Below, piece after piece: positions 4,202 to 13,200 of a stretch of 38,478 bases of DNA. A program made the translations under genes and the position numbers. Each line of letters starts with the position of its first letter. Within the stretch, counting starts at the first letter, position 1. The notes below the pieces were generated by a model, which saw only the letters and a list, made by a program, of their open reading frames with translations, did no database searches and was not told the DNA's origin. The stretch is taken from assembly GCA_036374795.1 (NCBI GenBank), contig DASUTC010000241.1, positions 1 through 38,478 on the forward strand, read 5' to 3'. The DNA is from Herpetosiphonaceae bacterium (GTDB taxonomy: Bacteria; Chloroflexota; Chloroflexia; Chloroflexales; Kallotenuaceae).

Positions 4202-7200
4202 ATGAGCAAAAAGAATGTCGAGGCTATCTACCCGCTGTCGCCGATGCAGCAAGGCGTGCTCTTTCACACGCTCTACGCGCCGCAGGCGGGCCTGTATGTG
4301 CAGCAGATCGCGTGTACCTTGCGCGGCGATCTCGATCTCCCGGTCTTCCAGCAATCCTGGCAGCGCGTCATCGATCGGCATCCGGTGCTGCGCACCCTGT
4401 TTTTGTGGGAGCGACGCGACCAGCCGCTTCAGGTGGTGCGGGCAACCGTCGAGCTGCCCTGGGAGTACGCCGACTGGCGCGAGCTTTCGGCGCGTGAGCA
4501 GCAGCAGCGGATCGATGCGCACCTTGACGCGGATCGCACGCGCGGCTTCGACCTGACGACCGCGCCGCTGCTGCGGCTGCGGCTGACTCGCCTGGACGCC
4601 ACCAGCTACCACCTGATCCTGACCTACCATCACCTGCTGCTGGATGCGTGGTCGCTCTCACGGCTGTTCAAAGAAGTGTTCACGCTGTACAGCGCGCTCT
4701 GCCAGGGCCGTGATCTGCGGCTGCCCACGCTCCGGCCTTATCGCGACTACATTAGCTGGCTGAAGCAGCAGGATGTCGCGCAGGCCGAGGACTTCTGGCG
4801 GCGGACGCTCCGGGGCTTTCACGCGGCCACGCCGCTGGGCGTCGATCGACCAGCGCTGGCGCACGCGGCGCAGGCCAGCGGCTACGCCGAGCAGCGCCAG
4901 CACATTCCGGCGGCAACCACCGAGGCGCTTCAGGCGGCGGCGCGTCGGCACCGGCTCACGCTCAACATCCTGGTACAGGGCGCGTGGGCGCTCCTGCTCA
5001 GCTACTACAGCGGCACCGACGACGTGCTCTTCGGCACGGTTGTCTCTGGCCGACCACCGACGCTGCCGGGCGTGGAGACGATGATCGGGCCGTTCGTCAA
5101 CGCCGTCGCCATGCGGGTGCAGGTCGATCGGCGGGCGCGACTCGTCGAGTGGCTGCACCAGATCCAGGCGCATCTGGTCGAGCTGCGCCAGTACGAGCAT
5201 AGCCCGCTGGCCCAGGTACAGAGCTGGAGCGAGATCCCGCGCGGTCAGTCGCTCTTCGAGAGCATTCTGGCCTTCGAGAATCATCCGGTCGAGGCGCTGG
5301 CGCATGAGCAAGGCATCGATCTGATCATCGAGCAGGCGCGCTCGTTCGAGAAGACGAACTACCCGCTGACGATCCGCGTCGTGCCGGGCAGCGAGCTGCT
5401 GTTGTGGATCGTGTACGACGACCAGCGCTTCGACGCTGCGGCGATCGACCGTTTGTGCGGTCACTTCCAGACGTTGCTCGAAGGCATCGGCGCGGCGCTT
5501 GAGGAGTCGCATGCCCGCCGCCTGGCCGACATCGGGCTGCTGACAGCCGACGAGCGGCAGCGCTTTCAGAACGGCCATACCATGCAGCCCGCCGATGTCG
5601 AGCCGCGCGCGCTGCATCAGATCTTCGAGGAACAGGCGCGCCGCCGTCCCGACGCGATTGCGCTGGTCTTTGAAGACATGACGATCAGCTACGCCGAACT
5701 TAACCGCCGCGCCAACGTGCTGGCCCAGGCGCTCATGGCGCGCGGCATCGGCCCCGGCGGCTACGTGGGCATCTGCCTGCCGCGCTCGGTCGATCTGGTC
5801 GTGAGCGTGCTCGCCGTCCTCAAGGCGGGCGGCGCGTATGTTCCGCTCGATCCGAGCTACCCCGCCGAGCGGCTGCACTTCATGCTCGACGATACGGCGG
5901 CGGCGGTCGTGCTCAGCCATGCCGACCTGGCCGATCAGCTTGATTCGGCGCATTCCGGCAGCCGGGCGCAACTGCTCTGCCTCGACACCGAGTGGGAGTC
6001 GCTCGCCGGGGAGTCGCTCCGCAGCGCCGAGAATCCGCCCTGCGCGGTCACGCCCGACGATCTGGCCTACATCATCTACACCTCCGGCTCGACCGGCCAG
6101 CCCAAGGGCGTGATGGTCGAGCATCGCCAGATAACACGGCTCTTCGCGACGACGCGGGCCTGGTTCCACTTCGACGAGCGCGATGTCTGGACGCTGTTCC
6201 ACTCCTACGCCTTCGACTTCTCGGTCTGGGAGATCTGGGGCGCGTTGCTGCACGGCGGTCGGCTGGTGATCGTGCCCTATCTGGTCAGCCGCGCGCCGGA
6301 GCGCTTCTACGCGCTGCTGGCGGAGCAGGGCGTGACTGTCCTCAATCAAACGCCGTCGGCCTTCCGCCAGTTGATGCAGGCCGAGGCGCAGGCGACGACC
6401 AGCCAGCCGCTCCGGCTGCGCTCGGTGATCTTCGGCGGCGAGGCGCTCGATCTCCAAAGCCTCCGCCCGTGGTTCGAGCGTCACGGCGACACACAGCCGC
6501 AGCTTGTCAACATGTACGGCATCACGGAGACAAGCGTCCACACAACCTATCGACCGCTCCGCCTGGCGGATCTGGATCAGGCGGGCAGCCTGATCGGACC
6601 GCCGCTGCCCGACCTTCAGCTCTATATTCTGGAGCCGCAGAGCTTGCAGCCGGTGCCGATCGGCGTCGCGGGCGAGCTGTATGTCGGCGGCGCGGGCCTG
6701 GCGCGCGGCTACCTTGGCCGCCCTGAGCTGACCGCCGAGCGCTTCATTCCGCATCCGTGGAGCTGCGGGGTGCCATGCCCAGAGGGCACCCGGCCAGGCA
6801 CCGGGCCCGGCGCGCGGCTGTACAGGACCGGCGATCTGGCGCGCTATCTGCCCGATGGCGACATCGAATATCTTGGCCGGATCGACCAGCAGGTGAAGAT
6901 CCGGGGCTTTCGGATCGAGCTGGGCGAGATCGAGGCCGTGCTCCGCCAGCATGACGCCGTGCGCGACGCAGTGGTGATCGCGCGGGAGGAAAACGGACAT
7001 AAACGGCTGGTGGCGTATGTCGTAGAACAAAGAACAACAGAACAACGGAACAAAGAAGAGGACCAAACACCACCTTCCCTCTCGCCTGCGCACACCGAGC
7101 GGGAAGGGGACCCGCGAGGGCGGGGAAGGGGGTGGCGGGGTGCCCTCTGGGCGGCGATTGGGGGTGAGGGCCTCACCTCCAAACTCCAAACCTATCTCAA

Positions 7201-10200: not shown

Positions 10201-13200
10201 CTACCTGGGCCGGATCGATCACCAGATCAAGGTGCGCGGCTTTCGGGTCGAGCTGGGCGAGATCGAAAGCGTGCTCCGCCAGCATGAGGCCGTGCGCGAG
10301 GCGGTGGTCATGCTGCGGGTCGAGCCGGAGCCGCAATTGGTAGCGTACGTTGTAACAAACAAAGACGCCGGGCGCCCTTTGGGCATGGCGCCCGGAACAG
10401 AGAGCAGCACGGCCAATGACTCGGGTTCCTTGCCCTCTGTTCCCTGTTCTCCCCAGGAATTCCGCGCGTTCCTGGGGTCGCACCTGCCCGACTACATGGT
10501 GCCGGGCGCGTTCGTGCTGCTCGACGCGCTGCCACTGACGCCCAACGGCAAGCTCGACCGCACGGCGCTTGCCGCGCTGGATGCCCGCCCCGATCAGGCT
10601 CAGGTCGAGTATGTGATGCCTCAGACCACGATCGAGCGAACGATCGCGGCGGTCTGGCAGGATGTTCTGCGCGTGGAGCAGGTCGGCCTGTACGACAACT
10701 TCTTCGACCTCGGCGGCCACTCGCTGCTGCTGATCCAGGCACGCAGCAGGCTGCGCGAGGCGCTCAGCGTCGATCTGCCGATGACCGACCTGTTTCGCTA
10801 CCCGACGATCCACAGCCTGGCGCGGCATCTTGCCGATCCCACAGATCCAGCGGAGCACGCGGGCGCGCTGCCGACGCGGCAGCCGACAGCGCGCGTCGAC
10901 AGAGGTGATAGAATAGCGATTATCGGTATGTCGTGCGCGGTGCCTGGCGCGCCCACGCTTGAGGCGTTCTGGGCCAACATCCGCGACGGCGTGGAGTCGA
11001 TCACGTTCTTCTCCGACGACGAGCTGGTCGCGGCAGGTGTCGATCGGGCGCTGCTCGACGATCCGCGCTATGTCAAAGCGAATGCTCTGCTCGACGAGAT
11101 CGAGCGGTTCGACGCGGGCTTCTTTGGGTACACGCCGCGCGAGGCCCAGCTCATCGATCCGCAGCAGCGCTTGTTCCTGGAACATGCCTGGGCGGCGCTG
11201 GAGCACGCGGGCTACAGTGCCGCGCCATCGACCGAGCCGTCCGCTGAGCGGGCGCGGATCGGCGTGTTTGCGGGCACGAGCATGAATAGCTACCTGCTCT
11301 TCAATCTGTACACCAACCGGGATCTGCTGGCGGCGACCGGCAACTTCCAGACGATGATCGCCAGCGATAAAGACTTCCTCCCGACGCGCGTCTCGTATAA
11401 GCTGAATCTCAAAGGGCCGAGCATCAACGTTCAGACCGCGTGCTCGACCTCGCTGGTGGCGGTCCATCTGGCCTGCCGCAGCTTGCTCGACGGCGAGTGC
11501 GACACGGCGCTGGCCGGCGGCGTGTCGATCCGCGCCACGCAGCGCACCGGCTACCTCTACGAAGAGGGCGGCATCGCCTCGCCGGATGGTCACTGCCGCG
11601 CGTTCGATGCGGACGCGCACGGCACCGTCGCCGGGAACGGCCTCGGCATCGTCGTGCTCAAGCGCCTATCGCGGGCGATCGAGGATGGCGACACGATCTA
11701 CGCCGTGATTCGCGGCTCGGCGATCAACAACGACGGCGCGCTCAAAGCGGGCTATACCGCGCCTGCGATCGACGGTCAGGCCGAGGTCATCGGCGCGGCG
11801 CTGGCAAACGCCGCCATCGATCCGGCGACGATCGGCTATATCGAGGCCCACGGCACCGGCACGCCGCTCGGCGACCCGATCGAAGTTGCCGCGCTGAATC
11901 AGGTGTTTAGGGGACGACCGCCGCGCTCCTGCGCGATCGGATCGGTCAAGACCAACGTCGGCCACCTGGATGCTGCGGCAGGCGTGATCGGGCTGATCAA
12001 GGCGGCCCTGGCGCTCTACCATGAGCAGATCCCGCCGAGCCTCAACTTCGAGTCTCCGAATCCCCAGATCGACTTCGCCAGCGGCCCGCTGTATGTCAAC
12101 ACCAGCCTCCAGCCCTGGCCCCGCACTGACCAACCACGCCGCGCTGGCGTTAGCTCGTTCGGCATCGGCGGCACCAACGCGCATGTTGTGCTGGAAGAAG
12201 CGCCGCAGCTTGATCCAGCCACATCGATCGCTGGATCGGGCTGGCACCTGCTGCCGCTCGCGGCTCGCAGCCAGGAGGCGCTGGATGTCATGACGGCACA
12301 GCTTGCGGCGCATCTGGCGGCCCATCCCGCGCTCGATCTGGCGGATGTCGCGTACACGCTGCAAGCCGGGCGGCACGCCTTTGCTCACCGGCGCGTGCTG
12401 GTCTGCCACGACCGCGACGACGCGATCGAGGCGCTGACCAGCCGCGACCCGGCCCGGCTGATCGGCGGCCAGGCTCCCAAACCAGGATCTCGCGGCGATC
12501 ATCCCCTGATCATGATGTTTCCCGGCGGCGGCGCGCAATATGTCAACATGGCCCGCGACGTGTACAACGACGTACCGCTGTTCCGCGCCGAGGTCGATCG
12601 CTGCTGCGCGCTGCTGGAGCCGCTGCTGGGCTTTGATCTGCGTGCCCTGCTGTATCCGCCGGAGACAACCAACGGCCAGACGCCGCCGCTCAGCCGCACC
12701 TCGACCGCGCTGCCCGCGCTGTTTGTGATCGAGTACGCGCTGGCGCAGCTCTGGATGAGCTGGGGCATCCAGCCTGTCGCCATGATCGGACACAGCCTGG
12801 GCGAGTACGTCGCCGCGACGCTGGCGGGCGTTTTCTCGCTCGAAGACGCGCTGGCGCTGGTCGTCCGGCGCGGCCAGCTCTTCGAGCAGCTACCGGCGGG
12901 AGCCATGCTGAGCATCGCCTTGCCGGAGCAGGCCGTGCTCGATCTGCTGCGCTCCGTGGACGCCCGCGATCGCGCCATTGCCGCCGTCAATGGGCCGGAG
13001 CTGTGTGTCGTCTCCGGCCCGGTGAGCGCGATCGAGGAGCTGACTACCACACTCACCGCACGCGGCATCGAGTGGCAGCGGCTGCACATCGACGTGGCCG
13101 CTCACTCGCCGATGGTCGAGGCGATTCAGGCCGAGTTTACGGCGTTCGTTGCCACGCTGACGCTGCACGCGCCGCGCACGCCGTTCGTCTCCAACGTGAG

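Follow-up and report, generated by a model that had tools for sequence, protein, structure and literature searches.

A dispersed hairpin repeat embedded in heptad islands and carried in frame by nonribosomal peptide synthetase genes of a Herpetosiphonaceae bacterium

Hairpin copies and composite islands in the window

The window analysed here is a stretch of 38,478 nucleotides from a Herpetosiphonaceae bacterium (contig DASUTC010000241.1, assembly GCA_036374795.1), which carries nonribosomal peptide synthetase (NRPS) genes and, within them, copies of a GC-rich 24-nt hairpin core, GGGYGCCATGCCCRRAGGGCRCCC. We found two full copies of this core, one on each strand, where none was expected in shuffled sequence, confirming the near-identical elements described in an earlier note on the window. 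The 15-nt partial copy reported there was also recovered with a score of 15, above the scores of 13 and 14 that each arise about 0.2 times per Markov-shuffled window. Two further pieces, at 17271-17285 and 23854-23868, had been listed as similar; they score only 10, a value expected about six times per window, and are a single 34-nt stretch common to both places. The short-loop version noted at 38378-38395 is near chance by ungapped sequence match, yet the covariance model recognises it (E 0.023) and it occupies exactly the place of the hairpin in a composite island, so that a decayed core copy is the probable reading (Table 1). All window copies lie in adenylation (A) domains, as had been stated, one of them in the loop that precedes motif A7 and the rest in the linker within the A-domain C-terminal subdomain.

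The core belongs to composite islands whose modules follow one order: GAACAAA-type heptads, ACC, the hairpin, GGCGCAC, the CCCTCTCC..GGAGAGGG / GTGAGGGCC block, and AACTTGG-type heptads. The islands are polar. When read on the GAAC-rich strand, AACTTG/AACTCG heptads (heptads B) flanked the core on its right in 129 cases and on its left in one, and GTGAGGGCC lay to the right 18 times and never to the left; AACCGGG adjoins the left side of the core (39:5 in favour of the left) and GGCGCAC the right side. The backbone GAGAGGG..GGGGTGAGGGCC was found at 57 sites, enclosing nothing, a half core, a full core or other hairpins, and an identical non-tandem joint, GGCGATTGGGGGTGAGGGCC, is common to separate loci. 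The hairpin is often lengthened by a 12-nt inverted arm module, and left and right extensions tend to be found in the same copy (co-occurrence odds ratio 7.9). We also considered covariation between the left and right extensions and rejected it, since the variants on the two sides do not correspond even though the extensions occur together. Hairpins nested in a reversed GGCC context were found at only two sites by pattern search. The window linker block GGTGGCGGGGTGCCCTCTGGGCGGCGATTGGGGGTGAGGGCC (from GGTGGCGGGGTGCC to GTGAGGGCC) is found again at three other places in the genome (C24, C50 and C226), where the NRPS linker motif was not seen in long frames.

All five NRPS A-domain C-terminal linkers detected in the window hold repeat islands, two of which consist of heptads only. 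The window also contains a tandem array in coding frame at 31529-32367, with about 6.6 units of 126 bp that look tetratricopeptide-like by eye.

Table 1. Hairpin copies and repeat islands in the window
Feature	Position	Strand	Remarks
24-nt hairpin core GGGTGCCATGCCCAGAGGGCACCC	6768..6791	+	Translated in frame as VPCPEGT; A-domain loop flanked by IPHPWS and GARLYRTGDL
12-nt 3' extension module GGCCAGGCACCG	6792..6803	+	Repeats the 5' arm GGGTGCCATGCC in inverted, degenerate form
Second full 24-nt hairpin core GGGCGCCATGCCCAAAGGGCGCCC	10370..10393	-	Sequence match and covariance model
15-nt half copy, exact over core positions 10-24	7138..7152	-	Inside island 7024..7192
Probable decayed hairpin copy	38378..38396	-	Covariance model E 0.023; fills the hairpin slot of island 38338..38425
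Composite island, A-domain C-terminal linker between LVAYVVE and LQTYLKDRLPDYM, in frame	7024..7192	+	
GGGGTGAGGGCC block of composite island	7161..7172	+	
Second A-domain linker island with hairpin, in frame (NKDAGRPLGMAPGTESS...)	10351..10445	+	Boundaries approximate
Composite island, linker of minus-strand NRPS	38338..38425	-	In gene sense: heptads A, hairpin, GGCACACC, heptads B
Heptad-only island (GAACAAG, then AACTCGA repeats), other NRPS A-domain linker	18486..18560	+	Without hairpin
Heptad-only island (GAACAAC, then AACTCGA/AACTTGG), other NRPS A-domain linker	25057..25187	+	Without hairpin
Heptad-only island	2893..2950	+	Directly after the stop at 2889

Copies in the genome and at orthologous sites

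The genome of the bacterium is a draft of 7.75 Mb in 373 contigs, 100% complete by the tool's estimate. In it we found 168 core matches with at most three mismatches (83 and 85 on the two strands), against one (0 + 1) for a reversed control pattern. A covariance model search returned at least 150 copies and revealed a subfamily of 25 nt, GGGTGCCCATGCCCRAAGGGCACCC-like, that has an additional C; the hairpin exists in forms of 24, 25 and about 36 nt. These results support the earlier suggestion of a dispersed family resembling repetitive extragenic palindromic (REP) elements, with many further copies beyond the window, on both strands, mostly between genes near gene 3' ends and sometimes in frame. 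A sister species (G001) has three core copies with at most two mismatches and, in small number, a variant of its own, GGGTGCCAGACCCAGAGGGTACCCC; at the same threshold, two more congeners lacked copies, as did the greater part of the order. No match to the repeat was found in Rfam. The exact core pattern had no matches in the IMG/VR and GTDB genome contigs, from which this genome and its near relatives may be absent, and in the part of the literature searched we found no description of the repeat for Chloroflexota or NRPSs.

To place the copies, we used open reading frames (ORFs) from a codon-usage caller trained on the window, not a curated annotation, and examined 93 of the copies. The results showed that 72 were intergenic and 21 lay inside ORFs, so that the restriction to A domains seen in the window does not hold genome-wide. 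Copies between co-directional genes lay closer to the upstream stop (median 59 nt) than to the downstream start (118 nt, p 1e-5). As many as 17 of the 21 intragenic copies were in NRPS genes, which occupy about 5% of the genome (binomial 2e-19), a share estimated from 112 Condensation-domain matches at an assumed 3.3 kb per module. That number of matches marks the genome as NRPS-rich, with clusters scattered over many contigs. One core copy outside the NRPSs is in frame in a probable penicillin-binding protein gene (L083:1500 region).

The repeat is tolerated in frame at several NRPS sites, which the translations place in the A-domain linker (from the AYVV strand to the LPDYM region), the loop before A7 (RLYRTGDL) and two loops of condensation (C) domains. 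Compared with LgrA, the first window site (6768) falls opposite a 15-residue gap in LgrA, and the linker, 8 residues long in LgrA, has about 50 here. At C186, the match to the Condensation-domain hidden Markov model is split exactly at the insert (model positions 126 and 129), with 66 nt between the two parts in frame. A copy in the sister species (L035) is likewise in frame, in a carrier-protein loop. Judging from these translations, parts of NRPS enzymes appear to be made of dispersed repeat DNA. The sister's NRPS linker island in L035 holds only stop-free GAACAAA-type heptads.

Comparison of orthologous sites documented a gain relative to the sister species. At one clean empty site (L076 and its sister L187), the sister has GGGGTAAAGCATGAGC and no island, against an island of about 120 nt in this species. 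The island (near L076:1463-1585; sister L187, G001:C746 region) has taken the place of the upstream stop codon and its surroundings, and the upstream frame reads through it to a new stop; from the sequence, the island would add a C-terminal tail, whose TGA overlaps the ATG that follows. In two other pairs (L011/L188 and L055/L097) the sister is also without the island, and at five loci (L012, L069, L090, L061 and L089) it has heptads without the core; no core was present in any orthologue examined. Since the sister orthologues carry heptads without the core, the heptad islands are older than the hairpin. Two genomes of another family of the same order (G006 and G009) contain abundant dispersed GAACATA heptads (142 and 175 matches), and on this abundance heptad islands appear to be an order-wide trait with lineage-specific units. 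At the sister loci L193 and L190, the orthologous-site islands combine other hairpins with AGAACCT, a heptad of the sister itself that brings in TAG stops.

Pairing, mobilisation and the spread of the repeat

We searched this genome and 10 relatives for the Y1_Tnp family (PF01797) as a sign of a REP-associated tyrosine transposase (RAYT), and in this genome found no RAYT, the one trace being a stop-containing remnant of 35 residues. No core motif lies in the 3.2 kb surrounding it, apart from a stray GGTGCCC. Relatives carry Y1 transposases, and the intact gene of the sister, as read from the sequence, is followed by a TnpB-like ORF and looks like the IS200/IS605 type rather than a RAYT. A GTAG within 6 nt of an end, on either strand, was present in 1 of the 93 copies, and CGTC or its complement, within the same distance, in 6. 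Flank identity at k=3-9 was near shuffled values; no target-site duplication, a mark of the miniature inverted-repeat transposable elements (MITEs) to which the earlier note likened the family, was detected. That the repeat is a true REP, its hairpins mobilised by a RAYT-type tyrosine transposase that was later lost, is rather unlikely. Its size, copy number and location are all REP-like, a remnant persists, and sister species hold intact Y1 transposases; however, the GTAG tag occurs in only one of the 93 copies, the surroundings of the remnant lack the core, the sister's gene looks to be of another type, and the sister retains this transposase yet has only three core copies.

The core is a 7-bp stem with a 10-nt loop, and the 36-nt form, a 12-bp stem with a 12-nt loop, folds well (z -3.8). 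The T-A pair of one window copy is C-G in the other, which the earlier note took for a compensatory change in a family under selection for folding. Among all copies (90-93), this pair (4:21) was T-A in 53, T-G in 23, C-A in 11 and C-G in 3 (Fisher p 0.75), and among 51 distinct copies the numbers were 23, 15, 7 and 3. The two positions vary independently, and the apparent compensation is a coincidence of two independent polymorphisms. Stem-wide covariation over the 51 distinct sequences was 0.085 compared with 0.089 in shuffles, and the inner stem TGCCC-AGA-GGGCA likewise did no better than shuffles. Changes that ignore base pairing are present: the stem is broken by a 5'-arm change alone in 18 distinct-copy cells and by a 3'-arm change alone in 12, and C-A copies are poor folders. 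The pair counts and shuffles thus ruled out compensatory pairing for both stems. Selection for pairing lacks support, and weak selection may act, since most stem positions hardly vary; the core sequence is strongly conserved, with sharp edges.

These data also bear on whether the repeat is a selected RNA element, a 3'-end hairpin acting as terminator or mRNA stabiliser and kept for its fold, which we regard as unlikely. The closeness of copies to upstream stops, the fold of the 36-nt form and an apparent double change in the inner stem between species agree with it, and at two loci the position of an island is taken in the sister by a terminator-like hairpin plus T run. Terminator-like sites were found in 11 of 54 island-bearing and 3 of 55 island-free 3' regions (p 0.02); despite this excess, most islands have none. 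The idea that islands generally replace intrinsic terminators, hinted at by two orthologue pairs, was not borne out by the count. The double change, the only one seen, is a single event, neither stem covaries within the genome, C-A copies fold poorly, both orientations occur, and 17 copies are translated within NRPSs.

Local replication slippage, making similar islands independently at each site, is quite improbable: it would suit the tandem heptads and 12-nt units and their varying numbers, but the complex module order is common to dozens of loci, and the identical non-tandem joints such as GGCGATTGGGGGTGAGGGCC and the species-specific heptad types need copying between loci. NRPS module duplication and recombination alone are a very improbable source of the window copies, because although 6768, L015 and L046 share loop, frame and a near-identical insert, and 10370, L058, L070 and L016 share a linker, the core region is 83-92% identical against only 70-77% for the flanks, L088 lies in the same loop in another frame, and the same blocks occur between unrelated genes.

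Taken as a whole, the results favour, with a probability of about 0.6, a dispersed non-autonomous composite repeat of which the core is the hairpin module, similar to REP and Rickettsia palindromic elements (RPE), without a transposase of its own and spread by block copying. Copying of blocks into new locations would take place at the DNA level, most probably while DNA is replicated or repaired, through template switching or recombination between repeats, and a trans-acting enzyme possibly helps. Insertions would persist where they are harmless, behind stop codons and in surface loops of NRPSs; they may survive in the loops because core and heptads are stop-free in any frame and insertions or deletions of the right length keep the frame. 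The hairpin would then vary by losing or gaining 12-nt arm units. Several points weigh against this composite-repeat reading, and the copying step is its weak link. Neither a copying intermediate nor an enzyme was identified. The same-site NRPS copies (6768, L015 and L046) may have moved by gene conversion between modules instead of insertion, and hairpin-only copies without heptads (6768 and C186) show that the composite is not always moved whole. Only one empty site is fully clean, its exact ends ambiguous by a few bases, and the draft assembly could conceal copies or a mobiliser. A bolder extension, in which RAYT-independent copying moves ordered hairpin-plus-heptad blocks and the lineage thereby sources new NRPS interdomain linkers and loops, is doubtful.

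Relation to known repeats and significance

REP elements are palindromes of 20-40 nt with tens to hundreds of copies, mostly extragenic near the 3' end of an upstream ORF, and both REP and RPE/CGTC elements also have intragenic copies and prefer the 3' side of genes (PMC3733652). The repeat described here is like REPs of the GTAG superfamily in being a short palindrome of high copy number, mostly extragenic, sometimes intragenic and with a 3'-side preference, but unlike them it has no GTAG tag, no RAYT was found in its genome, and it is embedded in ordered heptad arrays. With CGTC repeats, including Rickettsia RPE-4 and RPE-6 (PMC3733652), it shares the palindromic form, the lack of a dedicated transposase and the presence in frame within protein genes, whereas it lacks their CGTC tag, differs from their 8-9 bp stem and 4-5 nt loop, and occurs in NRPSs where they have invaded many DNA repair genes. 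The TAACTGA heptamers of Beggiatoaceae are dispersed 7-nt direct repeats between genes, occasionally in ORFs, with no known spreading mechanism (PMC4679880). The heptads found here are likewise dispersed direct repeats of 7 nt between genes and at times in ORFs; they differ in sequence, and several kinds are ordered around hairpins, mostly behind genes, whereas the Beggiatoaceae heptamers lie just before start codons. The repeat thus resembles REP and RPE/CGTC elements by behaviour, and with GTAG, RAYT and CGTC all wanting it is not counted as a member of either group. In yeast mitochondrial DNA, GC clusters are short GC-rich palindromic insertions, nested and mobile without a clear enzyme, and some of them lie in coding sequence. 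They may serve as an analogy only, being organellar and unrelated in sequence.

As natural insertions, the genomic copies map the places at which NRPSs accept additional residues, namely the loop ahead of motif A7, the A-domain C-terminal linker and the C-domain loops, and this map is useful for NRPS engineering. With ordered islands, an empty site in the sister species and a genome in which no RAYT was found, the spread of transposase-less palindromic repeats of the RPE/CGTC type becomes testable in a new lineage.

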